Assembly (NCBI RefSeq): GCF_030908245.1
Contig: NZ_JAVFJJ010000025.1
Coordinates: 1 to 32,977, forward strand
Reading direction: 5' to 3'
From: Sinomonas sp. ASV322
Lineage (GTDB): Bacteria; Actinomycetota; Actinomycetes; Actinomycetales; Micrococcaceae
DNA length: 32,977 nucleotides
Below the pieces are notes generated by a model. That model had not been told where the DNA came from, searched no databases, and saw only the letters and a program-made list of their open reading frames with translations. The position numbers were made by a program, and so were the translations under genes. How positions within the stretch are numbered: position 1 is the stretch's first letter; each line of letters starts with the position of its first letter. This document shows positions 209 to 19,430 of this stretch, one piece after another.

Positions 209-219
209 AACACCACCCG

Positions 220-1148: not shown

Positions 1149-1171
1149 TGCTCCCAGCTCCCGACAGCGTT

Positions 1172-1687: not shown

Positions 1688-1779
1688 GGCGAGTCTCCTG
1701 TCAGCGGACTATGCCGATCGTCACAGTTCGTGCGACAGCGTACAGCGAGGATGGCCTGTTGGGAATATGACGGACGGCA

Positions 1780-1785
1780 TAAAGT
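1780..1785 (+). promoter_or_regulatory. -10 element of a likely leaderless transcript
   Basis: TAAAGT fits the actinobacterial TAnnnT -10 pattern and ends 6 nt before the ATG at 1792. There is no Shine-Dalgarno sequence in front of that ATG. The expected start of transcription therefore falls on or next to the A of the start codon, giving a leaderless mRNA. The -35 (TTGGGA, 1759-1764) is poorly spaced at 15 nt. Confidence 0.4.
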
Positions 1786-1791
1786 GTGTCC

Positions 1792-2175
1792 ATGGTCGAC
1801 TGGATCGAAGACCCGATGGCTGGCGCGGGCTTGGCCGCCGGGACGCTGCCGGAGCCTTCGGGCTCAGGGTGCGTCGAATGCGATGAGGCCGGCGGTTGGT
1901 GGTTCCATCTGCGTCGATGCGTCAACTGCGGGCATGTCGGATGCTGCGACGACTCCCTCGCCCGCCATGCCCGCCGCCATTTCGAAGCCACCGGGCACCG
2001 GTACATCCAAAGCTTCGAGCCCGGCGAGGACTGGTTCTGGGACTACCTCGACGAGCGGGCGGTGCACGGGCCGCTGCTTCCGCCGCCGCGGCACCATCCC
2101 ACCGCGCAGCCCGCGCCAGGGCCCGAGGGCCGCGTCCCGTCCGACTGGCGGAAACAGCTCGCCAGCTCGCGATGA
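1792..2175 (+). CDS. UBP-type zinc finger domain protein
   Basis: A 127-residue protein with the zinc-ligand pattern of the ZnF-UBP fold: C27-x2-C30, C43-x2-C46, C51/C52, and histidines H59, H63 and H69. A CxxCGHVGCC core and an aromatic-rich GEDWFWDYLD segment follow. In eukaryotes this fold binds the C-terminal glycines of ubiquitin; in actinobacteria small stand-alone versions are common and of unknown role. The ATG at 1792 is preferred over GTG 1786 because no ribosome binding site exists and a -10 element places transcription start at the ATG. The C-terminal 35 residues are proline-rich and probably disordered. A stem-loop follows the stop codon. Confidence 0.8.
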   Translation: MVDWIEDPMAGAGLAAGTLPEPSGSGCVECDEAGGWWFHLRRCVNCGHVGCCDDSLARHARRHFEATGHRYIQSFEPGEDWFWDYLDERAVHGPLLPPPRHHPTAQPAPGPEGRVPSDWRKQLASSR

Positions 2176-2197
2176 GTGCCGGCCCGGACACAAGGAT

Positions 2198-2235
2198 GCC
2201 CCGGAGCGACGATTGGGGGGTGCGCGCTCCGGGGC
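2198..2235 (+). terminator. Hairpin terminator after the zinc finger gene
   Basis: Perfect 11-bp inverted repeat (GCCCCGGAGCG / CGCTCCGGGGC) with a 16-nt loop, 22 nt after the stop codon, followed by GGTCTT. It probably ends the zinc finger transcript. The rest of the interval to 2403 holds small hairpins (AGGCCT repeats and GGGAG-cta-CCTCCC) but no gene. Confidence 0.6.
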
Positions 2236-2403
2236 GGTCTTGGGAGGCCTTCAGGCCTGCGCACAAGCTTAGAGAGAGGGCGCCCGATTGGCCAGCACAT
2301 TCTGTCAAGAATTTGGGAGCTACCTCCCGGGGGCGTCGGCGCGCGCGGCCTCGTTGGCGGCGAAGCCTTGTCGGCGCGCTCCGGCGCGTGCTCGGATAGG
2401 CAC

Positions 2404-3543
2404 ATGGAAACCCCTGCGTATCTCTTGGCCATCGGCACCAAGAAGGGCCTGTGGCTTGCCACGAGCACCGACCGTCGCTCGTGGAACGTCTCACAACCGC
2501 ATTTCCTCATGCAGGAGATCCCGTCGATCGGGATCGACACGCGTGGCAACCGGACCCGACTTCTCGTCGGCGTCCGCTCCGAGCACTTCGGCCCGACCGT
2601 CGTGCACTCGGACGATCTCGGCTCGTCTTGGAACGAGCCGGACCGCGCGTCGATTGCGTTCGACGAAGGCGACGGCGCCGCCGTCGAACGCATCTGGCAG
2701 ATCCTCCCGGACGTCCCGGATCGTCCCGGCGTCGTCTGGGCGGGCGCGCAGCCCATCTCTGTGTGGAAGTCGACCGACAGCGGTGAGAGCTTCGAGCTCA
2801 ACCGCGGGCTCTGGGAGCACCCCGACAAGAGCGAATGGGGAGCCGGCTATGGCGGCGCGGCCGCGCATTCGATCGTGCCGGATCCACGGGATCCGGGGCT
2901 CGTGCACATCGCCATGAGCACGGGTGGCGTGTACCGCTCCCGGGACGGCGGGGCGAACTGGGAGCGGGCGAGCAAGGGCATCTCGGCATACTTCCTTCCG
3001 GACCCCGAGCCCGAGATCGGCCAGTGCGTGCACAAGATCGCGGCGGACGCGGACGGCCGCCTCTACGCGCAGAACCACCGCGGCGTGTTCCGGAGCGACA
3101 ATCAAGGCGAGCAGTGGGTCTCGATCGCCGAGGGCCTGCCCGCCGACTTCGGCTTCGTCATGCTCACGCATCCGCGGCGCAGCGGCACCGCGTGGGTCAT
3201 CCCGCTCGTCTCGGACTACGAGCGCATCGCCCCGGGCGGTCACCTTGCGGTGCATCGCACGGACGACGCCGGCGAGACGTGGCGGGCGTTCGACGGCGGT
3301 CTGCCTGCGGTCGATTTCAACACCGTGCTCCGCGATGCCGCGTGCGTCGACGCGAGCGACCCCGTGGGCGTCTACTTCGGGACGCGCGGCGGGACGGTGT
3401 TCGCGAGCTCGGACGAGGGGGAGTCGTTCGTCGAGGTCGCGACGGGCCTTCCGGACGTTCTGTGTGTGCGCGCCGCGGTGCTCGACGGCGGACTCACGCC
3501 AAGGGGGGCGGCCGCCGAGGCGGAGCGGACGACGGCGGGCTGA
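2404..3543 (+). CDS. Asp-box (BNR) repeat beta-propeller protein, sialidase-like fold
   Basis: A 379-residue protein with at least six Asp-box/BNR motifs spread along it (SDDLGSSW, STDSGESF, SRDGGANW, SDNQGEQW, TDDAGETW, SSDEGESF), the hallmark of sialidase/VPS10-like beta-propellers. No signal peptide is seen (METPAYLLAIGTKKGLW), so it should be cytosolic. Sialidase activity cannot be assumed, because Asp-boxes are structural. The ATG at 2404 is chosen because the propeller begins there; the upstream extension of the frame is non-propeller, GC-biased sequence. The ribosome binding site is weak. The MoaD-like gene starts 3 nt after its stop, implying co-translation. The pairing suggests a joint role, which is unknown. 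Confidence 0.8.
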   Translation: METPAYLLAIGTKKGLWLATSTDRRSWNVSQPHFLMQEIPSIGIDTRGNRTRLLVGVRSEHFGPTVVHSDDLGSSWNEPDRASIAFDEGDGAAVERIWQILPDVPDRPGVVWAGAQPISVWKSTDSGESFELNRGLWEHPDKSEWGAGYGGAAAHSIVPDPRDPGLVHIAMSTGGVYRSRDGGANWERASKGISAYFLPDPEPEIGQCVHKIAADADGRLYAQNHRGVFRSDNQGEQWVSIAEGLPADFGFVMLTHPRRSGTAWVIPLVSDYERIAPGGHLAVHRTDDAGETWRAFDGGLPAVDFNTVLRDAACVDASDPVGVYFGTRGGTVFASSDEGESFVEVATGLPDVLCVRAAVLDGGLTPRGAAAEAERTTAG

Positions 3544-3546
3544 CGC

Positions 3547-3831
3547 ATGGCTGCGAATGTGAGCGTCGTGCTGCCGCAGATCCTCGCGGATGTCGCGGGC
3601 GGGCGCACGGAGTTCTCCCTGACGGGAGTGGACTCCGTACGCGCCGTCCTCGACAGCTTGGCCGGCCCGTATCCGATCCTCGCGCGGAGGCTCCGGGATG
3701 AGACCGGCCGGCTTCGGCGCTACGTGAACGTCTACGTGGACGGGGAGGACGTGCGGCGCCGAGAGGGTCTCGACACCGCAGTGGCGGACGGGCAGGAAGT
3801 CATCGTCATCCAGTCCGTTGCGGGCGGCTGA
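3547..3831 (+). CDS. MoaD/ThiS-like ubiquitin-fold protein
   Basis: A 94-residue protein with the beta-grasp pattern of MoaD/ThiS and the C-terminal di-glycine (SVAGG) that becomes adenylated and thiocarboxylated in sulfur carriers, or conjugated in archaeal SAMP-type modifiers. The YVNVYVDGEDVR segment and the final VIVIQSVAGG are typical of MoaD-like carriers. No molybdopterin, thiamine, E1-like or JAMM protease gene is nearby. The only partner visible is the Asp-box protein 3 nt upstream. It could be a dedicated sulfur carrier or a protein modifier; sequence alone does not decide. Confidence 0.85.
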   Translation: MAANVSVVLPQILADVAGGRTEFSLTGVDSVRAVLDSLAGPYPILARRLRDETGRLRRYVNVYVDGEDVRRREGLDTAVADGQEVIVIQSVAGG

Positions 3832-3849
3832 ATCGGCGCGTGGGCGGGT

Positions 3850-4092
3850 CTAAGCCACGAGGTCCCGGCCCTTGAACGTGACATCCGCTTGGACCTGCCA
3901 GAGCGAGAAGTCTTCCTCTTGGATCGCGCGGCGGTAGTGGGTGTCCTCGTCCCGAATCCAGACGAGGCCGATGCCTGGCGCGGTGTCGTAGACGGTCCCC
4001 CGGAGGACAGTGACGCCGCTGCGGGCCTCGATGAGGTCCCCGCGGCGGAGTTCGCTGAGCTTCCGGATGCGGCGGTGGGTCTCGCTGGTCAT
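3850..4092 (-). CDS. Small conserved-looking hypothetical protein
   Basis: An 80-residue protein with a good ribosome binding site (GAAGGAG, 5 nt before the ATG at 4092 on the minus strand). It is rich in short beta-strand-like segments (DLIEARSGVTVLRGTVYDTAPGIG), which suggests a small SH3/KOW-like barrel. It has no membrane segment and no cysteines. It is convergent with the MoaD-like gene with 18 nt between them. No function can be assigned. Confidence 0.6.
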   Translation of the reverse strand: MTSETHRRIRKLSELRRGDLIEARSGVTVLRGTVYDTAPGIGLVWIRDEDTHYRRAIQEEDFSLWQVQADVTFKGRDLVA

Positions 4093-4248
4093 CGGTGCTC
4101 CTTCATGCGTCAGTGGTGTTCCGACCTCACCCAGTCTTCTCCGCCCCTGTTACCAGTCGGTTTCGTTCGCATGAGGGAGCGGTAAGGAGTGCGCGGCGAC
4201 GGCGTTTCCGCAGGTCGGTTGAGTAATCCACGTCACAACCGGCTCCCG

Positions 4249-4317
4249 TTACACCACGCGAAGGTCCGACACGCCGCGCCCGGTGTAAACAACTTATAAA
4301 GTTGGCATTCACAATGC
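4249..4317. promoter_or_regulatory. Cluster of palindromes in a 360-nt intergenic region
   Basis: Within the gene-free interval 4093-4452 lie two directly abutting perfect palindromes: CAACTT-ata-AAGTTG (4290-4304) and GCATT-cac-AATGC (4305-4317). An outer inverted repeat TTACACC / GGTGTAA (4249-4255 and 4282-4288) sits just before them. The first palindrome holds a TATAAA that could be a -10 on the plus strand for the DUF1508 gene, giving a leader of about 145 nt. The binding protein is unknown. Nothing else is seen in the interval. Confidence 0.4.
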
Positions 4318-4452
4318 GCAAAATTCTCATTCGGGGCCGGAGTACCCGTCGGTAAGGGTTTCGCCGCCCCGTTTGCCCCTGTAGCGTCGAAGGACGTCGG
4401 CACGATCTGCCGGCCCAACAAAATCCACACGGTCGGCAAAGGGGCATACACG

Positions 4453-4641
4453 GTGGCAGCACGATTCGAAGTCCTCAAGGATGGGGCCCGCCTCTACCGA
4501 GTCCAGCTCCGTTCGGCCGAAGGCGCGGTCATCGCGGTCGCGCAGGGTCTTCAGTCCCTCGACGCCGTCAAGCGCGTCATCGCCGCCGTACGCGAGTGCG
4601 CGTCCATGGGCCTCGTCGTGGATCTCACCAAGACCGTGTGA
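4453..4641 (+). CDS. DUF1508 (YegP-type) small protein
   Basis: A 62-residue protein starting at GTG 4453 with AAAGGGG about 9 nt upstream. The FEVLKDGARLYRVQLRSAEGAVIAVAQG segment followed by a helix fits the single DUF1508/YegP repeat: a small alpha/beta fold with no known enzymatic activity. It is normal length for a one-repeat member. It lies upstream of the GAF regulator, separated by a palindrome and an independent promoter-like region, so co-transcription is uncertain. Confidence 0.7.
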   Translation: MAARFEVLKDGARLYRVQLRSAEGAVIAVAQGLQSLDAVKRVIAAVRECASMGLVVDLTKTV

Positions 4642-4655
4642 CCCGTTCAGAGCTG

Positions 4656-4676
4656 GGTTGCAACGTCGGTGCAACC
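4656..4676 (+). promoter_or_regulatory. Inverted repeat upstream of the GAF regulator
   Basis: Perfect 7-bp arms GGTTGCA / TGCAACC with a 7-nt spacer. A TAnnnT -10 (TACACT, 4708-4713) lies downstream, so the repeat would be centred about 54 bp before the likely transcription start near 4720. That is an activator-type position. The downstream AcoR-like regulator is the obvious candidate ligand protein; this is inference. Confidence 0.45.
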
Positions 4677-4747
4677 TTTGGCCCCGATGGCCCGCGAGGG
4701 TGACGCGTACACTGTGGTGCACGGCACACATAAGGGAGTGGGTGGAC

Positions 4748-5959
4748 GTGCGGGCAGAGCAGCTCACGGCCGCGAGGCGAGGATCGCGGCGCGCTGTGGT
4801 TGAAGACTCCTGGCGGCGGTCGTTCGAGGCACACCCGCGTCGCGAGGATGCGGCCGTTACGAGCGTGCTCGCCGCGGACGAATTGCGCGGCTATCGTGAC
4901 GCCCACCGCCTCGCGGCCGTCACGCCGCTCATCCGGGAACTCCTGGTCCAGCCCGCGGCGGAGGCGGGGACCGTCGTGGCGATCGGAGACGAGGCCGGAC
5001 GGCTCCTCTGGATCGACGGCGACCCCGCCGTCCGCCGACGCGCCGAAGGCATGGCGTTCCTCGAGGGCGCCGACTGGTCCGAGGCGAGCATGGGGACGAG
5101 CGCGCCCGGCACCGCGCTCGCGACCGACGCACCCGTCCAGATCGCCGGCGCCGAGCACTTCAGCCCGCTCGTCGAGGCCTTCTCCTGCACGGCCGTTCCG
5201 ATCCGGGACCCCCTCTCGCGCGAGCCGATCGGCGTCGTCGACATCACGGGCGGCGACGAAGCCGTCTCCGGGTACGCCCTCCCGCTCGTCCGTGCGGCCG
5301 TCACCGCCGCCGAGGAGCGTCTCCGCGCGCTCGCGGTCGCATCCCGCCCACGCCGCCGCGCGCCTTCGTCCGCGGGGCCCGGGGTGCTTTCCGTCACGGG
5401 CCGCGACCACGGCGTGCTGCGCTGCGGCGACCGGACGCTGAGCCTCTCGATGCGGCATTCCGAAATCCTCGTGCTCCTCGCGAGCAATCCGCGCGGCCTC
5501 ACCGCCGAGGAACTTGCCGACCGGCTCTACGAGCAGGCCGTCCCGGCCGTGACCCTTCGGGCCGAGCTCGTCCGTCTGCGCAAGGTGCTCGACGCGTTCG
5601 GCGCGGGCGTGCGGCTCGAATCGCGGCCGTATCGGGTCGAGGGGCTCGAGGTCGACTCGATGCATGCTCTCGCGCAGCTTGAGCGCGGCTCACACCGCCT
5701 GGCGCTCAATGCCTACGGTGGCCAGATCCTGCCGCGTTCCGACGCGCCCGCGATCGCCGAACTGCGCGACGAGCTCTCCGCGACGCTGCGCGAGGCCGTC
5801 GTCGGGAGCGCGGGAGTCGACGTCCTCATGAGCTACCTGCAGCTTCCCGAGGCAGAGAACGACGCCGAAGCCTGGCAGACCGCGCTGCGCCTCCTTCCGC
5901 CGCGCTCGCCGAGGCGGGCCGCCGTCGTCGCCCATCTCGAACGGCTCCTCATCGCCTGA
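4748..5959 (+). CDS. GAF domain (AcoR-type) transcriptional regulator
   Basis: A 403-residue protein. Residues 15-195 match the N-terminal sensory region of AcoR-like regulators: SWRRS near residue 21, the W-SEASMGTSAPGTALATDAPVQ block near 110-130, AEHFSP, and SCTAVPIRDPLSREPIGVVDITG near 146-168. The C-terminal half (about 210-300) has a winged-helix-like region. The sigma-54 AAA+ domain of true AcoR is absent, as in actinobacterial members, which often sit beside aldehyde or alcohol dehydrogenase genes. None is in this window. GTG 4748 is chosen because GGGAG lies 9 nt upstream; an in-frame GTG at 4742 is too close to it. A palindrome and -10 element lie in front. Confidence 0.78.
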   Translation: MRAEQLTAARRGSRRAVVEDSWRRSFEAHPRREDAAVTSVLAADELRGYRDAHRLAAVTPLIRELLVQPAAEAGTVVAIGDEAGRLLWIDGDPAVRRRAEGMAFLEGADWSEASMGTSAPGTALATDAPVQIAGAEHFSPLVEAFSCTAVPIRDPLSREPIGVVDITGGDEAVSGYALPLVRAAVTAAEERLRALAVASRPRRRAPSSAGPGVLSVTGRDHGVLRCGDRTLSLSMRHSEILVLLASNPRGLTAEELADRLYEQAVPAVTLRAELVRLRKVLDAFGAGVRLESRPYRVEGLEVDSMHALAQLERGSHRLALNAYGGQILPRSDAPAIAELRDELSATLREAVVGSAGVDVLMSYLQLPEAENDAEAWQTALRLLPPRSPRRAAVVAHLERLLIA

Positions 5960-5980
5960 TCGCGCCCCTGCCGGCGCGCG

Positions 5981-6259
5981 CTACTCGAAGCGCACGGCGT
6001 TCCACTCGAGGATGCGCGGCTCGGCCAGCCCTTCGGCGACGAACGGGTCGTCCGCGATGAAGCGCTCGGCGTCCTCGCGCGACGTGAAGATCCCCATCGA
6101 GCTCACGGAGGGGTCGGGGGTCTGGAACGCCCCGAGCGCGACGAGCCCCCCGCCGCCGGCGCGGAACGCCTCGTAGAAGGCCTTGTGCCGGGGGAACACC
6201 TCGAGGGCGCGCGAACGGTCGACGCCCTCGCGCAGGCTGTACATGACAACGAATTCCAT
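5981..6259 (-). CDS. YciI family protein
   Basis: A 92-residue protein with the YciI/YCII pattern: MEFVVMYSLREG at the N terminus, R-x-x-HKAFYEAFRAGG, G-x-F-x-x-PD, and the FTSREDAERFIADDPFVAEGL block. The fold is a ferredoxin-like alpha+beta dimer; enzymatic roles are mostly unknown. ATG 6259 has AGGAT upstream on the minus strand. It is convergent with the GAF regulator (21 nt apart) and divergent from the ArsR-hyc operon. Confidence 0.8.
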   Translation of the reverse strand: MEFVVMYSLREGVDRSRALEVFPRHKAFYEAFRAGGGGLVALGAFQTPDPSVSSMGIFTSREDAERFIADDPFVAEGLAEPRILEWNAVRFE

Positions 6260-6310
6260 GGTCGGATCCTACGCGGGGCGGCGGCGAGTCCTTGGGCTTC
6301 TGTGACTTGC

Positions 6311-6316
6311 TAAAGT
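6311..6316 (+). promoter_or_regulatory. Probable -10 of the ArsR-hyc operon
   Basis: TAAAGT fits TAnnnT and lies in the only AT-rich patch of the divergent intergenic region. It gives an expected start near 6323 and a leader of about 25 nt carrying AAGGAGG. No good -35 is visible at 17 nt. No copy of the DosR-type GGGACT...AGTCCC box was seen here. Confidence 0.35.
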
Positions 6317-6348
6317 GTGAAATTGCGATTGTCCTCAAGGAGGTGGGC

Positions 6349-6687
6349 GTGACGAGACCGCTGTACCAGGTCAAGGCCGAGTTCTTCAGGACACTGGGGC
6401 ATCCGGCGAGAATCCGAGTCCTCGAACTGCTGTCTGTGCGGGAGCATGCCGTGGCCGAGATGCTTCCCGAGGTCGGCATCGAGCCGGCCAACCTTTCGCA
6501 GCATCTTGCGGTGCTCCGCCGCGCGGGCCTTGTCGCCACGCGCAAAGAGGGCTCGTCGGTCTACTACTCGGTCACAAGCCCCGACGTCGCCGAGCTCATG
6601 CGCGTGGCAAGGCTGATCCTCACGAGCGTTCTCACGGGGCAGGCGGAGCTTCTCGATGACCTGCGCGCCCCGGTCGCGGGGGCGTGA
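6349..6687 (+). CDS. ArsR-family regulator, Rv0081-like
   Basis: A 112-residue winged-helix protein: LYQVKAEFFRTLGHPARIRVLELL (helices 1-2), EPANLSQHLAVLRRAGLV (recognition helix) and EGSSVYYSV (wing). It contains no cysteine at all, and the metal-site ELCVC motif of classical ArsR is replaced by REHAVAEM, so it is not a thiol/metal sensor of the usual type. By memory it aligns closely with M. tuberculosis Rv0081, the hypoxia-network regulator that heads the Rv0081-Rv0087 cluster. GTG 6349 with AAGGAGG upstream is chosen over an upstream ATG at 6292. The next gene starts within about 8 nt of its stop. It likely regulates the operon it leads. Confidence 0.87.
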   Translation: MTRPLYQVKAEFFRTLGHPARIRVLELLSVREHAVAEMLPEVGIEPANLSQHLAVLRRAGLVATRKEGSSVYYSVTSPDVAELMRVARLILTSVLTGQAELLDDLRAPVAGA

Positions 6688-6694
6688 GATTGCC

Positions 6695-7180
6695 GTGCTG
6701 AAGCTATGGCGACGAATCCGTCGGATCGGCCGGATCGCGGAGCCCGCTCCGGAGCAGCCGGTCGCGGACCCGGCTGCGGTCGCGGCAGGGCTGGGTGGCT
6801 CGATCCAGATCCGGCATGTCGATGCGGGATCGTGCAACGCGTGCGAGATCGAGGTTGCGGCCGCGTTCGGCGCGGTGTACGACGCCGAACGCTACGGCGC
6901 CCGCCACGTTGCCTCGCCGCGGCACGCCGATGCCCTTATGGTCACGGGGCCCGTGACGCGCAACATGGTGGTGCCGCTGCGCCGTACGTACGAAGCGGTC
7001 CCGGCGCCGAAGCTTGTCGTGGCCGTCGGCGACTGCGCCCGTAACTGCGGGGTCTTCGCGAAGGCCTACGGCGTCGCGGGGGCGGTCGGGGACTTCGTCC
7101 CGGTCGACGTGGAGGTGGCCGGCTGCCCGCCGCGTCCCGAGGCGATCGTGGACGCGGTGAGGAAGCTCACCGGCCGATGA
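6695..7180 (+). CDS. NuoB/HycG-like Fe-S subunit (Rv0082-like)
   Basis: A 161-residue protein of the NuoB/small hydrogenase subunit family. The four cysteines that hold the proximal [4Fe-4S] cluster (N2 in complex I) are all present: C47-x2-C50 (GSCNACEIE), C114 (VGDCARNCG) and C144 (AGCPPRP). It therefore should pass electrons next to the large subunit. GTG 6695 is chosen because it follows the ArsR stop. An in-frame ATG at 6656 overlaps the ArsR gene and would add 13 residues. Its stop overlaps the next start (ATGA). It is soluble and expected to dock on HycE and HycD at the membrane. The short N-terminal arm (VLKLWRRIRRIGRI) is basic and amphipathic. Confidence 0.9.
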   Translation: MLKLWRRIRRIGRIAEPAPEQPVADPAAVAAGLGGSIQIRHVDAGSCNACEIEVAAAFGAVYDAERYGARHVASPRHADALMVTGPVTRNMVVPLRRTYEAVPAPKLVVAVGDCARNCGVFAKAYGVAGAVGDFVPVDVEVAGCPPRPEAIVDAVRKLTGR

Positions 7181-9204
7181 ACCTCGTTGCCGTGGGGCTC
7201 GCCGTCGCCACCGCTGCCGGCGTCGTGACGGCGGTGCTCGCCGTCGTCGTCCCCTCTCGCTTCCACGCCGCCGTCTCGGGAATCGGCACGGCCCTCGTGG
7301 GCGCGGCCGGGGCCGCAGCGGGGGCCGCCGCCGTGCTCGGCCAGCCGTTCGCGCTGTCGCTGCCGTGGGTGCTGCCGCTCTTCGGGGTCTCCCTCGAGGC
7401 GGATCCCCTCGGCGGGCTGTTCGTCGCCGTCGCGGGCGGCGCGGCCGCGACGGCGGGCGTGTACGGGATCCGGCCCGCGCGACGGGACAGCGGGGTGCGC
7501 GCCACGAGCGTCGTCATGCCCCTCTTTGCGTTCTCGCTCCTCCTCGTCCCCGTGGCGTCCGGGGTGGGTTCGTTCCTCGCGCTCTGGGAGCTCATGGCCC
7601 TCACGTCGCTCGTGCTCGTGCTCACGGGCCGCCGCCGCGCGGAGGCTGTCGAGGCGGGCCGCTGGTACGCGGTGATGACGCACCTCGGGCTCGTCGCGAT
7701 CATGATCGGGCTCATGATCCTCGTGGCCCACGCAGGCGGCGACTCCTTCGCCGCGCTGCGCGCCGCGGCCGGGAGCGTCCCACCCGCCATTGCGGGCACG
7801 GTGTTCGTGCTCGCGGTCCTGGGCTTCGGCTCGAAGTCGGGAATCCTGCCCCTGCACGCGTGGATGTCCCGCGCCTATTCGGCAGCCCCCGGCCACGCCG
7901 CGGTCCTCATGTCCGCCGCCATGGCGAACCTCGGGGTATACGGGATCGTGCGGGTCGGCTTCGACTTCCTCGACGGCGCCCGGTCCGACACGGCGCGCTG
8001 GTGGTGGATCGGCGCCCTCCTCCTCGGTGCCGCATCCGCCGTCTACGGGATCCTGCAAGCCGCGATGAGCTCGGACCTGCTGCGCCTGCTGAGCTTCTCC
8101 TCGACGGAGAACATGGGGCTCATCCTCGCGGGCGTCGGGGCCGCTGGGCTGTTCGCGTCGTCCGGGAGCGGTGCCCTCGCCGGCCTGGCCCTCGTCGCGG
8201 CGCTCCTCCACACGCTCAACCATTCGGCGTTCAAGGCGCTCCTGTTCCAGGCTGCGGGATCCACGGTCGAGGCGACCGGAAGCCGGGACCTCGATGAGCT
8301 GGGCGGCCTGCGGCCCAGAATGCCGGGGACGACGGCGGCATTCGGCTGGGGTGCCCTGGCTGCCTCGGCGCTGCCTCCGGGCACGGCGTTCGTCTCGGAG
8401 TGGCTGCTCATCCAGGCCCTCATCCATGGGCTCGGGGCCTCCGGCGTGGCGAGCTCCGTCGTCCTGCCCGTCGCGGTGGGCGCGGTCGCGCTCACGGCCG
8501 GCCTCTCGGTGGCCACGTTCGTCAAGGCCTTCGGGGTCGGGTTCCTCGCGAGGCCTCGCAGTGACGCCGCGAGCCAGGCGACCGAGGCCCCCGCGACGGC
8601 GCTCGTGGCGATGGGCCTCACGGGCGCGGCGTGCGCGATCCTCGCCGTCCTCCCCTCCCTCGTGCTTCCGGGGCTCGGGCGCGTCGCCGGCTCGCTGACC
8701 GGCGCCGCGGGGACGACGGTCGACGGCGCCGTGACCCTCGAGCTCTCGGGCGTCGCCGGATCGCTCTCGCCGCTCGTCGTCGGCGTCGGCCTCCTCGTCG
8801 CCGTCGTGCTCGCGGCCGGAGCCGTCCGGGCGCTGGCCGTCCGCCGCGCCCGGCGCGCCGCGAGGCTGTGGGACTGCGGCGCGGGTCCGCTCACGCCCCG
8901 CATGGAGTACACCGCGACCTCGTTCGCCGAACCGCTCCAGCGCGTGTTCGACAACGTCGTCGCCCCCGAAACCGGCGTTGACGTGACTCATCCCGAGGAG
9001 TCCAACTACCTCGTGGAGCTCGTCGAGTACCGGCGGACGGTGCCCGACCGCATCGAGCGCCGCCTCTACCGCCCGGTCCTCGCGCTCGTCTCGGCGTGGG
9101 GGAGCGTCGGACGCCGGCTCGCGAGCGGGAGCATCCACCAGTACCTCGCGTACGGCTTCTTCGTGCTCATCGGCCTGCTCGTGGCGCTCGCGGTGACCCG
9201 GTGA
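7177..9204 (+). CDS. HyfB/HycC-like proton antiporter subunit (Rv0083-like)
   Basis: A 675-residue multi-pass membrane protein of the NuoL/NuoM/MrpA antiporter family. The key charged residues of the ion path are kept: E138 in the WELMALTSLVLV helix and K220 in the GFGSKSGILPLHAWM helix, plus the LHTLNHSAFKALLF segment with its histidine and lysine. The C-terminal extension (RLWDCGAGPLTPRMEYTATSFAEP, then a final helix) is the type found in HyfB/HycC. It is expected to translocate H+ or Na+ in the complex. It overlaps the previous and next genes by 4 nt each (ATGA, GTGA), so subunits are translationally coupled. Confidence 0.92.
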   Translation: MNLVAVGLAVATAAGVVTAVLAVVVPSRFHAAVSGIGTALVGAAGAAAGAAAVLGQPFALSLPWVLPLFGVSLEADPLGGLFVAVAGGAAATAGVYGIRPARRDSGVRATSVVMPLFAFSLLLVPVASGVGSFLALWELMALTSLVLVLTGRRRAEAVEAGRWYAVMTHLGLVAIMIGLMILVAHAGGDSFAALRAAAGSVPPAIAGTVFVLAVLGFGSKSGILPLHAWMSRAYSAAPGHAAVLMSAAMANLGVYGIVRVGFDFLDGARSDTARWWWIGALLLGAASAVYGILQAAMSSDLLRLLSFSSTENMGLILAGVGAAGLFASSGSGALAGLALVAALLHTLNHSAFKALLFQAAGSTVEATGSRDLDELGGLRPRMPGTTAAFGWGALAASALPPGTAFVSEWLLIQALIHGLGASGVASSVVLPVAVGAVALTAGLSVATFVKAFGVGFLARPRSDAASQATEAPATALVAMGLTGAACAILAVLPSLVLPGLGRVAGSLTGAAGTTVDGAVTLELSGVAGSLSPLVVGVGLLVAVVLAAGAVRALAVRRARRAARLWDCGAGPLTPRMEYTATSFAEPLQRVFDNVVAPETGVDVTHPEESNYLVELVEYRRTVPDRIERRLYRPVLALVSAWGSVGRRLASGSIHQYLAYGFFVLIGLLVALAVTR

Positions 9205-10157
9205 GCGCGCTCGGCATCGTCGGCGGCGTGCTTCAGGCCGCGCTCGTCGTCGCGGGTTCGCCGCTTCTCGTCGGATGGATGCGGCAGATCAGGGCCCGGC
9301 TCGAGGGGCGCGTCGGCGCCGGCGTCGTCCAGCCGTGGCGGGACCTGCGCAAGCTCTTCCGAAAGGAGGCGATCGCCCCGGCCGGAACGAGCGAGGTCTT
9401 CAGATTCACTCCGCTCGTGCTCGTCGGGTCGACCCTCGTTGTAGCCGCGGCGATCCCCTTCGTCACGGACGCGTCGGCCCTCGGCCCCGGAGCCGACCTC
9501 TTCGCCGTCGTCGCCCTCCTGGCCATGGGGACGGCGACGCTCGCGCTCGCGGGCCTCGACACGGGGACGGCCTTCGGGGGCATGGGCGCGAGCCGGGCGA
9601 CGACGATCATCGCCCTCGTCGAGCCCAGCCTCCTCATGGCGATCTTCGCCCTGTCCGTCCCGGTCGGGTCCACGAACCTCGCCTCGATCGTCCACTCGGC
9701 CCTCCGCAATCCGGCGCAGGTGCTCTCGCCCGCGAGCCTCCTCGCGGCCGTGGCCCTGCTCATGGTCACCGTCGCGGAGACGGGCCGGCTTCCCGTCGAC
9801 AACCCCTCGACCCATCTCGAGCTCACGATGATCCACGAGGCCATGGTCCTCGAGTACTCGGGGCCGGACCTCGCGCTCGTCGAGCTGTCTGCATCCATGC
9901 GGCTCAGTGTGTTCCTCGGCCTGCTCGCGAGCCTTTTCGCACCATGGGGCATCGCGACGTCGCTCGACCCCGTGCCGCTCGGCGTCGGCGTCGTCGTGTT
10001 CGCGGCCAAGGTCCTCGTGCTCGGCACGGCGGTGGCCGTGGGCGAGGTGTTCGTCGCGAAGCTGCGCCTCTTCCGGGTTCCCGAGCTTTTGGCGGGATCC
10101 TTCCTGCTCGGGCTGCTTGCGGTCGCGGCATCGTTCTTCCTGTCGAGGCAGCCATGA
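9201..10157 (+). CDS. hycD: HycD/NuoH-like membrane subunit (Rv0084-like)
   Basis: A 318-residue membrane protein of the NuoH/HycD/HyfC family. Diagnostic motifs are the amphipathic loop with RLEGRVGAGVVQPWRDLRKLFRKE (about 33-56) and ETGRLPVDNPSTHLELTMIHEAMVLEYSG (about 193-221), whose acidic and basic residues line the quinone-side or proton channel in relatives. It anchors the soluble HycE/NuoB module to the membrane arm. The start is the GTG at 9201, overlapping the previous stop as GTGA. The length matches family members of about 310-320 residues. Confidence 0.93.
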   Translation: MSALGIVGGVLQAALVVAGSPLLVGWMRQIRARLEGRVGAGVVQPWRDLRKLFRKEAIAPAGTSEVFRFTPLVLVGSTLVVAAAIPFVTDASALGPGADLFAVVALLAMGTATLALAGLDTGTAFGGMGASRATTIIALVEPSLLMAIFALSVPVGSTNLASIVHSALRNPAQVLSPASLLAAVALLMVTVAETGRLPVDNPSTHLELTMIHEAMVLEYSGPDLALVELSASMRLSVFLGLLASLFAPWGIATSLDPVPLGVGVVVFAAKVLVLGTAVAVGEVFVAKLRLFRVPELLAGSFLLGLLAVAASFFLSRQP

Positions 10158-10816
10158 GCGAGGCCCTGTACGTCCAGCTGCTCGACCTCGCGGGCGGAGC
10201 GCTGCTCCTGACCGCCGTCGTGATCCTCTGGCGCCGAAAGCTCACGGCGATCGTGCGGGTCTTCGCCGTGCAGGGGTTCGCGCTCTCGCTGCTCGTCGCC
10301 GTCCTGGCCGCCCACGAGAACGACCCCACGCTCGGCGGGATCGCCGTCGGCCTCCTCGTGCTGCGCGCGGGCGTCCTGCCCTGGCTCCTCCGCCGCGCCC
10401 TCGCGGCCGCGGGGGAGGAGCAGCACGAGACACGTCCGCTCGTGAACGTCGCGGCCTCGCTCCTCGCGGCGGCCGTCCTCGTGCTCATCGCCTACGCCGT
10501 CTCGCAGCCCCTCGTGGAGCTCTTCCCCTCGGCGGCGAGCACCGCGATCCCCGTCGGCATGGCCGTGGTGCTCATCGGCTTCTTCGCGCTCGTCACGCGC
10601 CGCCATGCCCTCTCCCAGCTCGTCGGGTTCCTGCTCATGGACAACGGCATCACGGCGGTGGGCTTCCTCGCGACGACCGGGGTGGCCTTCGTCGTCGAGC
10701 TTGGCATCTCGCTCGACGTCCTCATGGCGGTGCTCGTGCTCTACGTCCTCGCGAGCCGCATGCGCGAGGCCTTCGGCACGACCGATCTGGACGACCTCCG
10801 GGAGCTCCACGACTGA
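10154..10816 (+). CDS. hycP: HycP/HyfE-like membrane subunit (Rv0085-like)
   Basis: A 220-residue hydrophobic protein with about six predicted membrane helices. It matches the HyfE/HycP family: a NuoK-like C-terminal part (GFLLMDNGITAVGFLATTG, then VELGISLDVLMAVLVLYVLASRMREAFG) and the closing DLDDLRELHD. The equivalent M. tuberculosis protein is, as I recall, also 220 residues. NuoK-like subunits carry buried glutamates for proton transfer; E in VVELGI and D in LLMDNG are candidates. It starts in an ATGA overlap with hycD and ends in a TGATG overlap with hycQ. Confidence 0.88.
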   Translation: MSEALYVQLLDLAGGALLLTAVVILWRRKLTAIVRVFAVQGFALSLLVAVLAAHENDPTLGGIAVGLLVLRAGVLPWLLRRALAAAGEEQHETRPLVNVAASLLAAAVLVLIAYAVSQPLVELFPSAASTAIPVGMAVVLIGFFALVTRRHALSQLVGFLLMDNGITAVGFLATTGVAFVVELGISLDVLMAVLVLYVLASRMREAFGTTDLDDLRELHD

Positions 10817-12414
10817 TGAACGACGTGATCCTGCTCGTACCTGTCCTCGCGCCGCTCGCCGGCGCCGTTGTCTACGTGGCCTTCGGCTGGCGGCCGGCGA
10901 CGTCATGGGCCGCTGCCGTGAGCGCGGCCCTCGTGCTGGCCTCCGGCGCCGTCCTCGCGGCGGACGTGCTGCAGCACGGCGCGCGGACCGGCCTCTTCGG
11001 ACTCGTCCGCGTCGACGCGCTCGCTGCCTTCATGCTCGTCGTGGTGGGCGCCGTCGCGCTCCTCGCGGCGGGAGCGACGCCGTCGTGGCTCCGCGGCGAG
11101 ATCGCCGCGGGACGGGCCGAGCCCCGTACCGCGACCCGCCACAGCCTGCTCGTGCAGCTGTTCCTCGCGGCCATGGCGTGGGCCGTGATGGCCGCCAACG
11201 TGGGGATGGTGTGGGTGTCGATCGAGGCCACGACGATCGTGACGGCGTTCCTCGTCGGGCAGCGGCGGAGCCGGGCGGCGGTCGAGGCGGCGTGGAAGTA
11301 CGTCGTGATCTGCTCGACAGGCATTGCCGTCGCGCTCCTGGGCATCCTCCTGCTCGACGCCGCCGCGAGCCACGTTCCCGGCCATGTTGGGCTCGACTGG
11401 GTGGAGCTCGTGTCCGCGGCCCCGCATCTCGACCCCGGGGTGACCCGCATCGCCGTCGCCCTCATGGTCGTCGGGTTCGGCACGAAGGCAGGCCTCGCCC
11501 CGCTGCACTCGTGGCTGCCCGACGCCCACGGCCAGGCGCCAGCCCCGGTCTCGGCCCTCATGTCCGGGGTGCTGCTCGCGGTCGCCTTCTCGGTGGTTCT
11601 CCGGGTCAAGGCGATCTCCGACGCCGCGCTTGGCCTCGGCTTCGCCCGGACCCTGCTCGTCGCGATTGCGCTCGCGACGCTCGCAGTCTCCGCTTCGCTC
11701 ATGATCCGGCAGCGGGACTACAAGCGCATGCTCGCGTATTCGAGCATGGAACACCTCGGGATCATCGCGTTCGGCGCCGCCGCGGGCGGGCCGCTCGCGA
11801 CGGCCGCGGTCCTCCTGCACGTCCTCGGGCACGGACTGGTCAAGGGCGTCCTCTTCCTGGGCGCCGGCCAGATCCTGCACGCGACCGGGTCCAGCCGCAT
11901 CGACGCCGTCCGGGACCTCGTGGGACGCGTGCCCGTGTTGGCAGGCTGCGTCGGGGTCGGGGTGCTCGCCCTGATCGGGTTCCCGCCGTTCTCGGTCTTC
12001 GCGAGCGAGCTGGGCATCGTGCGGGCGGGCTTCGGCGCTGGGCTTGGGTGGGCCACTGCGCTCGCGCTCGTTCTCGTCCTGGTCATCGCAGCGGCCCTCG
12101 TGGTCCATACGAGCCGCATGCTGTTTGCACGCCCCGGCGCGGCGGCGGAGCCCGCCGACGAGCCCAGCGCGGCCAGTCCGACCAGCCCTGACAGCCCCGG
12201 CCTCCCGGCCGCGCCTGACAGCCCGGCCAGCCCTGCCAGCCCCGGCCTCACGACCAGCCCTGCCAGCCCCACCGCGGAACCCGCCCTCCCGCGTCGGCGC
12301 GCGGCCATGCCGCTCCTCCTCGGCCTCCTCGCGTGCTCCGCGCTGGGCGTGACCGCGGGCCCCCTCGCCGCCGTCCTCGATGCCGCCGCCCAGAGTCTGA
12401 CGGGAGCGCCATGA
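10816..12414 (+). CDS. hycQ: HycQ/HyfF-like antiporter subunit (Rv0086-like)
   Basis: A 532-residue second antiporter-type membrane subunit. Ion-path residues are E137 (VSIEATTIVTAFLVG) and K224 (GFGTKAGLAPLHSWLPDAHGQAP); the FGTKAGLAPLHSWLPDAHG block is diagnostic of HyfF/HycQ. Later helices carry H-x-x-GHGLVKGVLF. Between the penultimate and last membrane helices (about 441-494) there is a Ser-Pro-rich low-complexity linker with repeated SPASP/PDSPGLP units, which I do not know from the family and which looks like a local tandem-repeat expansion. The start overlaps the hycP stop by one base; the stop overlaps the hycE start (ATGA). Confidence 0.92.
   Translation: MNDVILLVPVLAPLAGAVVYVAFGWRPATSWAAAVSAALVLASGAVLAADVLQHGARTGLFGLVRVDALAAFMLVVVGAVALLAAGATPSWLRGEIAAGRAEPRTATRHSLLVQLFLAAMAWAVMAANVGMVWVSIEATTIVTAFLVGQRRSRAAVEAAWKYVVICSTGIAVALLGILLLDAAASHVPGHVGLDWVELVSAAPHLDPGVTRIAVALMVVGFGTKAGLAPLHSWLPDAHGQAPAPVSALMSGVLLAVAFSVVLRVKAISDAALGLGFARTLLVAIALATLAVSASLMIRQRDYKRMLAYSSMEHLGIIAFGAAAGGPLATAAVLLHVLGHGLVKGVLFLGAGQILHATGSSRIDAVRDLVGRVPVLAGCVGVGVLALIGFPPFSVFASELGIVRAGFGAGLGWATALALVLVLVIAAALVVHTSRMLFARPGAAAEPADEPSAASPTSPDSPGLPAAPDSPASPASPGLTTSPASPTAEPALPRRRAAMPLLLGLLACSALGVTAGPLAAVLDAAAQSLTGAP
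12136..12297 (+). repeat. In-frame Ser-Pro minisatellite in hycQ
   Basis: Degenerate repeats built from agccctgacagccccggcc-like units, in frame, encode the linker of HycQ residues 441-494 (AASPTSPDSPGLPAAPDSPASPASPG and following). The flanking membrane helices are intact, so the tract is tolerated in a loop. Confidence 0.7.
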
Positions 12415-13985
12415 ACCCCGAGCACACCCCCGAACCGGCCTCTGCCGAGCCGCAGCCCGGCGAGCCCATCGGGTACCGCCGCACCGGCGTCGTCGTCGGG
12501 CCGGAGCAGCTCGCGGGCCAGGCCGCGGGCCTCCTCGGCGAGGGCTACCGCGTCGCGCTCGTCGCCGGGCACGACGACGGCCCGGCCGGTGGGCTGCGCG
12601 CCGTCTACCTCTTCACCGCTCCGGGACCGGACCGCCGCGTCGAGCTGTCCGTGCACCTGGACCGCGACCGCCCCCTCGTGCCCAGCCTCGCGGGCGTCTC
12701 GTTCACGGCAGGGCGTTTCGAGCGCGAGATGCGCGATCTCTACGGGATCGTCCCCGACGGGCATCCGCTTCCGCGGCGAATGGTCCTGCACGCGCACTGG
12801 CCGAAGGGCTGGTACCCGATGCGCAGCGATTCGGGGGATCCCTCGGAGTTTCCCGTCGTCGCAGACCCGTACCCGTTCCGCACGGTCGAGGGCCCCGGGG
12901 TCTACGAGATCCCGGTGGGCCCAGTGCACGCCGGCATGATCGAGCCGGGCCATTTCCGGTTCTCGGTCGTGGGCGAGACGGTGCTCAACCTCAAGGCCAG
13001 GCTCTGGTTCGTGCATCGTGGCATCGAGAAGCTGTTCGAGGGGCTCCCGCCGCACGACGGCGTTGAACTCGCTGAGCGCGTGAGCGGGGACACCGCCGTC
13101 GGGCACACGATCGCGTATTGCACCGCCGTCGAGGACGCTCTCGGCATGCCGGTGCGGACTGAGGACCGCCTCCTCCGCGCGCTCCTCCTCGAGCTCGAGC
13201 GCATCCACAATCACGTCGCCGACCTCGGAGCCCTGTGCAACGACGTGGGCTACGCGATCCTGAACGCCCACGCCCAGCGTCTCCGCGAGCGGCTGCTCCG
13301 GCTCAACGACCGCTTGACGGGGCATCGCCTCCTGCGCGGGGGAGTCCACCCGGGCGGCGCGATGGTCCGTGAGCTCCCCGACGTGGACGAGCTCGCAGCC
13401 ATCGGCGAGGACGCCGCGGAGATCGCGGGCCTTGCGCTCGGGCAGAGCATCGTCGTCGACCGTTTCACGGGCACGGCGGTGCTCACGAACGAGCAGGCGC
13501 GGGACCTCGGCACCCTCGGCTATGTCGCCCGGGCCAGCGGGCTCGACGTCGACGCGCGCCACGGGCACCCCGTCCCCGGGGTGGTCCTTCCGCGAACCCA
13601 GCACGCGCATACCGGCGGGGACGTGCTCGCGCGCTTCAGCGTGCGCGCCGAGGAGGTCGCCGCGTCCGTTCAGTTCGCCATCGAATCAGTGCGCGCCCTT
13701 GACGGGCACCTCGGGGCGCCCGGGCGCCCGCTCCCGGCCGCTGTGCTTGTGCCTTCGGGGACGCGCTCCGGCGTGGGCATCGTCGAGGGATGGCGCGGCA
13801 CGATCGTGCATCGTGTCGAGATTGCGCCCGACGACGGCGGGGCGCGCACCTCGCGCGTCAAGATCGTGGATCCGAGCTTCATGAACTGGCCCGCCCTGCC
13901 GGTGGCCATGGCAGACACGATCGTCCCGGACTTCCCCCTCGCCAACAAGAGCTTCAACCTCTCCTACGCGGGAAACGACCTGTAG
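12411..13985 (+). CDS. hycE: HycE-like large subunit without Ni ligands (Rv0087-like)
   Basis: A 524-residue fusion of a NuoC-like domain (about 20-140, with AGRFEREMRDLYGI and the RMVLHAHWP segment) and a NuoD/hydrogenase large-subunit domain (about 165-524), the arrangement of HycE/HyfG. Group 4 [NiFe] hydrogenases bind nickel through RVCGICG near the start of this domain and DPCxxC near the C terminus. Here the first reads ERVSGDTAVGH (Ser225, Thr228) and the second DPSFMNW (Ser489, Asn492), so all four ligands are gone. It cannot hold a normal NiFe centre. No C-terminal maturation site is needed; the protein ends SFNLSYAGNDL. ATG 12411 overlaps the hycQ stop. Confidence 0.93.
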   Translation: MNPEHTPEPASAEPQPGEPIGYRRTGVVVGPEQLAGQAAGLLGEGYRVALVAGHDDGPAGGLRAVYLFTAPGPDRRVELSVHLDRDRPLVPSLAGVSFTAGRFEREMRDLYGIVPDGHPLPRRMVLHAHWPKGWYPMRSDSGDPSEFPVVADPYPFRTVEGPGVYEIPVGPVHAGMIEPGHFRFSVVGETVLNLKARLWFVHRGIEKLFEGLPPHDGVELAERVSGDTAVGHTIAYCTAVEDALGMPVRTEDRLLRALLLELERIHNHVADLGALCNDVGYAILNAHAQRLRERLLRLNDRLTGHRLLRGGVHPGGAMVRELPDVDELAAIGEDAAEIAGLALGQSIVVDRFTGTAVLTNEQARDLGTLGYVARASGLDVDARHGHPVPGVVLPRTQHAHTGGDVLARFSVRAEEVAASVQFAIESVRALDGHLGAPGRPLPAAVLVPSGTRSGVGIVEGWRGTIVHRVEIAPDDGGARTSRVKIVDPSFMNWPALPVAMADTIVPDFPLANKSFNLSYAGNDL

Positions 13986-14001
13986 GACTGGGAGTGCTTG
14001 C

Positions 14002-14045
14002 CTGCCCATCCATTCTCTGACTATGGTCAGAGAATGGATGGGCAG
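14002..14045 (+). promoter_or_regulatory. Perfect 20+20 bp palindrome over a leaderless promoter and start codon
   Basis: Arms at 14002-14021 and 14026-14045 are perfect reverse complements (outer ends CTGCCCATCC / GGATGGGCAG) around a 4-nt centre TATG. The centre begins a -10-like TATGGT (14022-14027), with TTGCCT (13998-14003) as a possible -35 at 18 nt. Transcription start is then expected at about 14034, the A of the MarR-GNAT ATG, which lies inside the right arm. No Shine-Dalgarno precedes that ATG. It reads best as an autoregulatory operator, but could also be an RNA hairpin ending the hyc operon. Confidence 0.6.
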
Positions 14046-14918
14046 ATCGAGGCGGTTCGGCGGTTCAATCGGGTCATCACTCAGCGCGTCGGCGCGCTCC
14101 AGGACGCGTATCTCTCGCGAGAGCGTTCGCTGGGGCTTTCGAGGATCCTGTGGGAGATCGGTCCCGAAGGTGCGGAAATCCGTGTGCTGCGCGCGCGGCT
14201 CGGCTTGGATTCCGGCTACGTGAGCCGTCAGCTCCGTGTCCTGGAATCGCAGGGACTCGCCGTCAGCGACGCCGGCGATCGAGATGGGCGAGTCAGAACT
14301 GTCAGGCTCACGGCCGCTGGCCTCGCCGAGCGTGCGCTGCTGGATCGTTCCTCCGACGAACTCGCGGCGTCGATGCTCGAGCCGCTCACGGCGGCACAGC
14401 GGGAACGATTGGTTGCGGCGATGGCAGAGGTCGAGAAGCTGGTCATCGCCTCTCTCGTGCGCGTCGAGATCACTGATCCGCGCAGTCCTGACGCGCGCTA
14501 TTGCCTGCGGTCCTACTTCGACGAGTTGGGCCGTCGCTTCGATGCGGGCTTCGATCCGTCCCGGAGCATCTCCGCGAGCGACGACGAGATGACGCTCCCT
14601 GATGGGCTGCTGTTGGTCGCAACGCTCTCGGGCTCGCCCGTGGGGTGCGGCGCCCTCAAACTCCACGCCGAAACGCGGATCGCCGAGGTCAAGCGCATGT
14701 GGGTGTCCCCGGGCGTCCGCGGACTCGGTCTGGGGCGGCGGCTGCTTGAATGCCTTGCGGGGGAAGCATCGTCGCGGGGAATGCGGACGCTGCGGCTGGA
14801 GACGAACCAAGCCCTCGCCGAGGCACGTCGGCTCTACGAGACGGCTGGTTTCGTGGAGGTCAGCGCCTTCAATGACGACCCGTATGCGCACCACTGGTTC
14901 GAACGCGCCTTGCCCTGA
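14034..14918 (+). CDS. MarR-type regulator fused to a GNAT acetyltransferase
   Basis: A 294-residue two-domain protein. Residues about 5-140 are a MarR winged helix (RRFNRVITQRVGALQDAYL, then LGLDSGYVSRQLRVLESQGLAV and the DGRVRTVRLTAAG wing). Residues about 150-294 are a GNAT domain (SGSPVGCGALKL, EVKRMWVSPGVRGLGLGRRLLECL with the acetyl-CoA loop R-G-L-G-L-G-R, and ALAEARRLYETAGFVEV). Such fusions are known in actinobacteria and usually act as regulators or small-molecule/protein acetyltransferases; the substrate here is unknown. ATG 14034 is preferred (start of the MarR helix, leaderless promoter). It follows the hyc operon by 48 nt but appears separately expressed. Confidence 0.85.
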   Translation: MDGQIEAVRRFNRVITQRVGALQDAYLSRERSLGLSRILWEIGPEGAEIRVLRARLGLDSGYVSRQLRVLESQGLAVSDAGDRDGRVRTVRLTAAGLAERALLDRSSDELAASMLEPLTAAQRERLVAAMAEVEKLVIASLVRVEITDPRSPDARYCLRSYFDELGRRFDAGFDPSRSISASDDEMTLPDGLLLVATLSGSPVGCGALKLHAETRIAEVKRMWVSPGVRGLGLGRRLLECLAGEASSRGMRTLRLETNQALAEARRLYETAGFVEVSAFNDDPYAHHWFERALP

Positions 14919-19058: not shown

Positions 19059-19430
19059 CTAGATGCCGAGTGTCGCGCGGAGCGGCCACCCCTGATCGTC
19101 CAGGATCGCCTGGATCCCGCGGTTGGATGCCTCGTTGATCACGAGCGGGGCCATGAGATTGACCGTGGTTCCCCTGGCGCCGGGGGTGGCGACGACGAGG
19201 ATGCGCGCGCCCGTGGCGTCCTCGAGGCCGACGGCGCGGCACGGGGCCGCAATCTCTGGGGCGTAGTCGGGAACATAGACGGCCGCGTCGACGGCGAAGA
19301 GGCGTACGTCCGGCCTCTCCGCGGGACGCAGGCTGAAGAGCCCGGCCGCCCCTTCGACGGCGACGAGCGAGTACTCGGTGTAGGGGGCGAGGCCCGGCAG
19401 GGGCTCGACGAGCGTGAGGGGCGCGCTCAT
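19059..19430 (-). CDS. fliW: Flagellar assembly factor FliW
   Basis: A 123-residue protein fitting FliW: LTLVEPLPGLAPYTEYSLVAVEGAAGLFSLRP and ARILVVATPGARGTTVNLMAPLVINEASNRGIQAIL, where the NLMAPLVIN block is diagnostic. FliW binds flagellin and, when free, antagonises the translational repressor CsrA, coupling flagellin synthesis to secretion. A csrA gene normally lies next to fliW; none is present within this window. ATG 19430 overlaps the flgL stop (ATGA). It is the last gene of flgN-flgK-flgL-fliW. Confidence 0.9.
   Translation of the reverse strand: MSAPLTLVEPLPGLAPYTEYSLVAVEGAAGLFSLRPAERPDVRLFAVDAAVYVPDYAPEIAAPCRAVGLEDATGARILVVATPGARGTTVNLMAPLVINEASNRGIQAILDDQGWPLRATLGI

Follow-up and report, generated by a model that had tools for sequence, protein, structure and literature searches.

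Energy-converting hydrogenase-related (Ehr) complexes occupy a position close to where hydrogenases and complex I diverge; they lack the nickel ligands of hydrogenases, and both their reaction and their function are unknown (PMC6349859, PMC10284858, PMC12342949, PMC10432482, PMC7304191). They occur in Nitrospira, ammonia-oxidising archaea, mycobacteria, proteobacteria and bacteria of the candidate phyla radiation (CPR). In Mycobacterium tuberculosis, the genes Rv0084–Rv0087 are named hycDPQE and are preceded by Rv0081–Rv0083 (PMC5484546, citing He 2011). Here we analyze an operon of this kind in Sinomonas sp. ASV322, on contig NZ_JAVFJJ010000025.1 (32,977 nucleotides, the whole of which we call the window). 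By its sequence, the encoded complex is a member of the known, sporadically held Ehr family: the large subunit is free of nickel-binding cysteines, small, NuoH-like and antiporter-like subunits are encoded in one operon, and the complex is placed within the Ehr clade. The ligands of a [4Fe-4S] cluster are kept as well, a character of doubtful value for defining the family because several branches lack it. New are the window operon as an Ehr member, with its interest in what the family comparison opens, and the finding from alignments that the former [NiFe] pocket retains the proton path of formate hydrogenlyase (FHL) without nickel ligands and without the quinone ligands of complex I.

Positions 6349–13985 contain seven overlapping + strand genes, which encode an ArsR-type regulator and the full set of six complex subunits:

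6349–6687, + strand: ArsR/SmtB-type regulator, 112 residues, free of Cys; Pfam HTH_5 (5e-10), NCBIfam HTH_metalloreg
6656–7180, + strand: small subunit, NuoB/HycG-like; Pfam Oxidored_q6 (8e-29); aligned to HycG and 87 relatives
7177–9204, + strand: HyfB-like antiporter-type subunit, 675 residues; NCBIfam hydrogenase 4 subunit B (5e-153), under the curated cut-off
9201–10157, + strand: HycD/NuoH-like subunit, GTG start, 318 residues; Pfam NADHdh (4e-40)
10154–10816, + strand: HyfE/HycP-like subunit, 220 residues; NCBIfam hydrogenase 4 membrane subunit (3e-25), under the curated cut-off
10816–12414, + strand: HyfF/HycQ-like antiporter-type subunit, 532 residues; NCBIfam hydrogenase 4 subunit F (1.5e-99), under the curated cut-off
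12411–13985, + strand: large subunit of the fused NuoC/NuoD type, HycE-like, 524 residues; Pfam Complex1_30kDa, Complex1_49kDa and NiFeSe_Hases
13083–13094, + strand: L1 site, SGDT at codons 225–228, where hydrogenases have CxxC (alignment to HycE)
13962–13973, + strand: L2 site, SYAG at codons 518–521, where hydrogenases have CxxC (alignment to HycE)

The regulator gene has a GTG start preceded by AGGAGG, and the true start of the small subunit is probably the GTG at 6695, just past the regulator's stop codon. The Pfam and NCBIfam matches bear out a first-pass annotation, made from the letters of the window, in its seven overlapping genes and their families; because the NCBIfam matches lie under the curated cut-offs, the membrane subunits are hydrogenase-4-like and not Hyf proper. 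That annotation had likened the order to that of Rv0081–Rv0087, and the order regulator, small, HyfB-, HycD-, HyfE-, HyfF-like and large subunit (ArsR-S-B-D-E-F-L) is indeed common to the window and five mycobacterial loci (L042, L043, L047, L048, L049; L and G numbers are our handles for loci and genomes), at each of which our crude gene picking missed one gene. The Rv numbers are those of PMC5484546, and the mycobacterial order rests on mycobacteria other than M. tuberculosis H37Rv. The gene picking also took antisense frames in places, by which subunits are undercounted, and L093, where no large-subunit frame was picked, was left out.

The closest solved structure to the large subunit is HycE of E. 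coli FHL (7z0s; 1.5e-59), a nearer match than the membrane-bound hydrogenase MBH (3e-27) or Nqo4 (2e-24). The nickel ligands C241, C244, C531 and C534 of HycE align to S225, T228, S518 and G521, and no Cys occupies any of the four columns in 77/80 aligned rows (window and 79 named loci, the named loci being the top 80 among 580 confirmed relatives), which argues that the lack of nickel ligands is not due to chance; one of the 77 rows, L067, ends before L2, and one of the two scan patterns for the named loci includes S518, which biases the L2 counts. All four cysteines are present in the other three rows (L086, L089, L090). A whole-protein search of the phylum, evaluated for the best 29 loci of 143 matching genomes, returned none of the cysteines in 16 loci (among them L005, which breaks off in L2), all four in 12 and three in 1. 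The loss of nickel ligands asserted by the first-pass annotation thus stands, as do its placement of the first pair at S225/T228, the Ehr membership (by subunits, ligand loss and tree position) and the mycobacterial-type order, but the second motif was misplaced: S489 and N492 (DPSFMN) exist as numbered but belong to a different stretch, and the HycE motif SLDPCYSC with C531 and C534 aligns to S518 and G521 in the C-terminal NKSFNLSYAGNDL. The last residues, NKSFN.SY.GNDL, are strongly conserved, with the same scan-pattern bias. The window protein ends at the column of HycE R537, which we take to be the end of mature HycE, and none of the 80 rows extends past it.

That the complex works as a formate hydrogenlyase or hydrogenase, as the annotation history of the mycobacterial locus would have it (PMC5484546) and as might be read into the higher abundance of Ehr proteins with formate in Geobacter (PMC7894505), is extremely improbable. 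Besides the missing ligands and the missing tail past the L2 region, HypD gave no match in the window genome (97.9% complete), while four of the 14 control genomes, including E. coli, were positive in the same search. No HycB-like match was obtained in 100 related loci or the window, and Ehr expression in Nitrospira moscoviensis is described as not increasing with H2 (PMC12342949). We therefore reject an identity as hydrogenase or FHL, given the absence of ligands and of a HypD match. A weak test for formate dehydrogenase, with the E. coli FdhF sequence up to its in-frame stop as query, gave no match in 33 loci. Even for the cousins with all four cysteines a function as hydrogenases is uncertain, because G078 (L030; one contig, 99% complete) and G784 (L089) encode CCCC large subunits without tail but have no HypD match; a HypD match is lacking in 24/51 genomes with Ehr or all-cysteine cousins.

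The residues E193, H284, R395, E437, R478 and D529 of HycE were assigned to proton transfer (PMC9474812). Their counterparts in the nickel-free rows are kept almost throughout: E178 in 68/77, H268 in 76/76, R374 in 74/77 (K in the other three), and E415 and R462 in 77/77 each; D529 is replaced by N516 in 75/76. The quinone His column of complex I is I177 in 77/77 rows and the quinone Tyr column L220 in 73/77, where the conservation from I177 to F182 is partly biased by the scan pattern. Despite its strong conservation, the pocket is by these alignments neither a hydrogenase site nor a canonical quinone site. The replaced His and Tyr also speak against a short, quinone-reducing complex I that would pass electrons from ferredoxin or flavodoxin through a single cluster to menaquinone. 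The homology of the small and large subunits to the quinone module and ferredoxin-linked genes beside some operons would suit such an enzyme, but Daviesbacteria and Levybacteria carry Ehr without Fe-S ligands, and we consider it improbable.

The small subunit of the window has all four cluster cysteines (C60, C63, C127 and C157, numbered from 6656). The antiporter-type residues highlighted by the first-pass annotation are present and conserved in the relatives aligned: E138 and K220 of the HyfB-like subunit in 62/62 each, with K353 and E408 also conserved, and E137 in 58/58 and K224 in 59/59 for the HyfF-like subunit, with K343 also conserved. In the HycD/NuoH-like subunit, 19 charged columns are kept in at least 45 of 47–49 relatives.

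Our preferred reading, held with slightly less than even confidence, is that the window encodes an ion-translocating oxidoreductase that has one cluster and no nickel and is served by a soluble donor. The subunits, the missing nickel and quinone ligands and the kept Fe-S, proton-path and antiporter residues are features of the sequence itself; from these we infer the cluster, the electron flow, its acceptor and direction, and the pumping. The complex would be a six-subunit nickel-free Ehr relative of FHL and complex I, with a single [4Fe-4S] cluster at the N2/proximal position of the small subunit, as its four cysteines suggest. As no HycF- or HycB-like wire turned up, a soluble one-electron carrier would most likely dock directly on the small subunit. 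The cluster may hand electrons to an acceptor in the former [NiFe] pocket, which is predicted to bind no metal there and to retain the hydrogenase proton-transfer chain. Linked protonation changes could then drive H+ or Na+ through the membrane arm, along an ion path that the conserved residues place in the two antiporter-like subunits and the NuoH-like subunit.

Two sets of observations weigh against this oxidoreductase, and the first concerns the donor. Nitrospirota loci L081–L083 carry 2-oxoacid:ferredoxin oxidoreductase-like genes directly upstream of Ehr (about 1–3600, named by eye), with PF02552 found by Pfam in the upstream genes of L081 and a PF02552-like fragment in L080. These neighbours hint at a ferredoxin-type carrier, but the hint does not carry over to the window, because its genome has no 2-oxoacid:ferredoxin oxidoreductase above cut-off (POR_N 23.2 bits, cut-off 27). 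POR_N gave no match in three of three Cryobacterium genomes or in the genomes of L067 and L103, and a ferredoxin oxidoreductase as general partner was dropped. Of 100 loci, 12 have a HycF-like ferredoxin gene or domain following the large subunit, and the three named loci with four nickel cysteines are among them. In the window, tblastn with E. coli HycF found none; a divergent separate ferredoxin could be missed by this search, which overlooked the ferredoxin-like domains fused in L133–L135.

The second set of observations was unexpected: intact Ehr operons have lost the Fe-S ligands on more than one occasion, an argument against electron flow as the core function. For this reason, the redox partner and the reaction that the first-pass annotation tacitly assumed are not secure for the family, although the window itself keeps its ligands. 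In the alignment with HycG, the four cysteines are intact in 75 of 88 small subunits, the window's included. T-C-D-D replaces C-C-C-C in five loci (L087, L101, L103, L120, L121). The taxonomic class of G239 (299 genomes, 30 loci among the matches listed) yielded at least six T-C-D-D genomes, of which two had been counted before, and the class of G749 (281 genomes, 6 matches), read by eye, yielded T-C-D-D three times and S-C-D-D and T-E-D-D once each, where two of the five broken subunits had already been counted and the sixth match gave no reading by script. In total, T-C-D-D or nearly so was found in 12 different genomes, 9 of them before the search of the G749 class. Three or four of the cysteines are replaced in L087, L101, L103, L120, L121, L171–L173 and L178–L182, mostly by T-C-D-D, and the same Thr and Asp replacements occur in Actinomycetota and in CPR bacteria. 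PCCC occurs in L072 and CCCN in L135. Less sure are CCPS in L131 and L132, where a nearby Cys may stand in for the third ligand, and DIDD in L167 and DEDS in L168, where the alignment is less certain and L168 carries a fused ferredoxin-like domain. L167 (about 1–14500) has tandem Ehr-type gene sets, with the Fe-S ligands intact in one and broken in the other. In the mainly actinobacterial branch to which the window belongs, A-C-A-S is found in L067 (a metagenome-assembled genome of Microbacteriaceae) and C-C-C-S/N in three Cryobacterium isolates (L060, L061, L071); these changes look like a further loss of the cluster in progress. We met no report of Fe-S ligand loss in EhrS in the literature examined, in which the founding Ehr papers appear as references only.

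These losses could be explained if Ehr were at heart a non-redox ion-translocating machine, in which the pocket is a buried, proton-coupled site for a ligand or substrate that gates or drives the antiporters, a possibility to be taken seriously though not a probable one. The [4Fe-4S] cluster, where kept, would then be structural or a redox sensor, and loss would have been stepwise, with the ferredoxin subunit and nickel going first and the last cluster following in some lineages. In its favour, all six subunit genes are present in eight T-C-D-D loci (L087, L101, L103, L120, L121, L171–L173; L172 meets a contig end inside the large-subunit gene, and L170 is cut inside the HyfB-like gene), and tblastn with E. 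coli HycF found no HycF-like gene in these eight. In G749, G750 and G751, the T-C-D-D protein is the sole NuoB-like match (E<=1e-4), and G751 has neither a HypD nor a POR_N match, but these are small or draft genomes for which completeness figures are not given. The membrane charges are mostly kept: those of the NuoH-like subunit equal the window's in L087, L101 and L103 (19/19), two of three listed charged columns differ in the HyfE-like subunit of L087 and L101, and single columns differ in the HyfF-like subunit of L101 and L103. In five Fe-S-broken rows the former [NiFe] pocket is almost unchanged (R374 to K in four, G521 to A in one). The ratio of nonsynonymous to synonymous substitution rates (dN/dS) is 0.06–0.23 in 15 pairs of T-C-D-D small subunits (closest pair 0.108 at dS 0.27) and 0.10–0.20 in 6 pairs of large subunits, but dS is near saturation in most pairs. 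As a control, 20/20 NuoB proteins of complex I from the G239 class retain the adjacent cysteines and GCPP, three of them from genomes that also have T-C-D-D; 18/20 pass a stricter pattern for the middle Cys, and the other two still have four cysteines.

Among rows with a known Fe-S state, broken ligands occur in 17/87 rows without nickel ligands and in 0/11 rows with three or four nickel cysteines, but these are small numbers from related rows with long branches; HycE is one of the 11, and the doubtful CCPS loci L131 and L132 enter the 17 through L011 and L013. A link between the loss of nickel ligands and that of Fe-S ligands is suggestive only. When the states are mapped on a quick tree of 120 large subunits, those with two or fewer Fe-S cysteines require 3 changes and any broken state 5, with the states of both L167 copies, L168, L169, L171, L173–L177 and HycE entered by hand and 22 rows left without a state. 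In a first, separate tree, the starred branches group the window with nickel-free rows only (10, 18 and 43 rows), in a mainly actinobacterial branch; N. moscoviensis (L085) falls into the window's larger group, and the deeper branches are weak (82–85). In this first tree, rows with four nickel cysteines were nested within rows without them, which implies at least two changes, again with weak support at the deeper nodes (83).

All four Fe-S cysteines are kept in 81 of 98 rows with known state (HycE included), the window among them, which points to selection on the cluster in most of the set and speaks against a machine without redox function. Such a machine should lack redox cofactors, and the T-C-D-D relatives would do so by sequence while the window does not; besides, the clades that lose the cluster may have changed their function. 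That Ehr complexes are proton-coupled, ligand-gated ion machines derived from a dead hydrogenase, with pocket, proton path and antiporters under selection and the cluster still present in the window, is a somewhat unlikely conclusion on this evidence. For the window itself, we retain the one-cluster oxidoreductase as the tentative first choice.

The distribution of the complex is sporadic. The large subunit was found in none of 14 genomes of the same genus and, at E <= 1e-30, in 3 of 97 relatives besides its own genome, all of the same order; the nearest named relatives, about 70% identical, are from Trebonia, Kutzneria and Pseudonocardia. Relatives occur on 66 plasmid records, of which 21 are typed as conjugative, and in four plasmid records that were read the L1 and C-terminal L2 stretches are free of Cys and all four Fe-S cysteines are kept. 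Sporadic distribution and plasmid-borne relatives fit a sporadic gain by horizontal transfer. They also weaken the proposal of the first-pass annotation that this strain offers a tractable model, as no other genome of the genus has the large subunit and plasmid-borne relatives reside in more tractable hosts, e.g. Cupriavidus and Rhizobium. The MarR-GNAT fusion gene that adjoins the operon (13998–14918) is likewise absent from 14/14 other genomes of the genus, indicating that the accessory region extends past the operon.

Among the neighbour clusters of the window and the 80 named loci, none besides the six subunits and ArsR recurs in over 8 loci, apart from cluster c7, which is present in 12 and was judged to consist of antisense frames of subunit genes; a locally encoded partner was dropped. 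In 47/103 related loci, many of which are cut short, an ArsR-like gene is found no more than 9 kb from the large subunit. Cys is absent from 25/48 ArsR-like proteins, the window's included, and Cys-based metal sensing is not supported in general. In most of the Pseudonocardiaceae loci L033, L034, L035, L039 and L107, the operon is followed by ArsR, CBS-domain-like and phosphoenolpyruvate carboxykinase-like genes (named by eye). A zinc-ribbon YjdM gene lies about 1–2.5 kb upstream of the Ehr operon in L174 and L176 (Rhodococcus and Burkholderia plasmids). Elsewhere in the window, a BNR-repeat protein is directly followed by a ThiS/MoaD-like small protein (2401–3831), a possible functional pair. 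Flagellar genes including FlgK and FliD occupy 19430–26701, with two flagellins on opposite strands (19430–20311, – strand; 23958–25112, + strand) and a sigma-70-type factor with a SnoaL-like domain among them (22397–23332, – strand).

If members without redox ligands are functional, a NuoB/NuoD module would run the membrane arm of complex I without electrons, and the coupling step would be separated from redox chemistry, a long-standing question for complex I. The T-C-D-D genomes and the plasmid-borne relatives in more tractable hosts make this idea testable. In Mrp, an antiporter-like subunit works in a complex without redox chemistry. To our knowledge, neither Mrp nor DAB2 has a NuoB/NuoD-like module. 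DAB2 ties an antiporter-type subunit to CO2 hydration without redox chemistry and thereby sets a precedent for a non-redox use of such membrane subunits (PMC13144422).

Complex I shares with the window complex the homologues of NuoB, NuoC/D, NuoH and the antiporters. In contrast to complex I, the quinone His and Tyr are absent, the small subunit has CxxC-type instead of adjacent cysteines, and NuoF (PF01512) gave no match in the window genome, in which NuoI, NuoE and NuoG were not searched for; a second NuoD-like or NuoB-like protein was not found there either. With E. coli FHL-1 (Hyc, 7z0s) the window shares the homologues of HycE, HycG and HycD and the proton-path residues, whereas nickel ligands are missing, HycB and HycF were not found, and two antiporter-type subunits and a HyfE-like one are present, as in Hyf. 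Compared with known Ehr complexes, the window differs in that the small-subunit gene comes first and not last, an ArsR gene stands in front and no HycF-like subunit was found, but it agrees with them in the types of subunits, the loss of the four nickel cysteines and the antiporter-like subunits (also PMC7894505). With M. tuberculosis Rv0081–Rv0087 it shares the regulator, the two oxidoreductase genes and hycDPQE (PMC5484546), and its large subunit is 59–63% identical to those of the mycobacterial loci L042, L043, L047, L048, L049 and L070.

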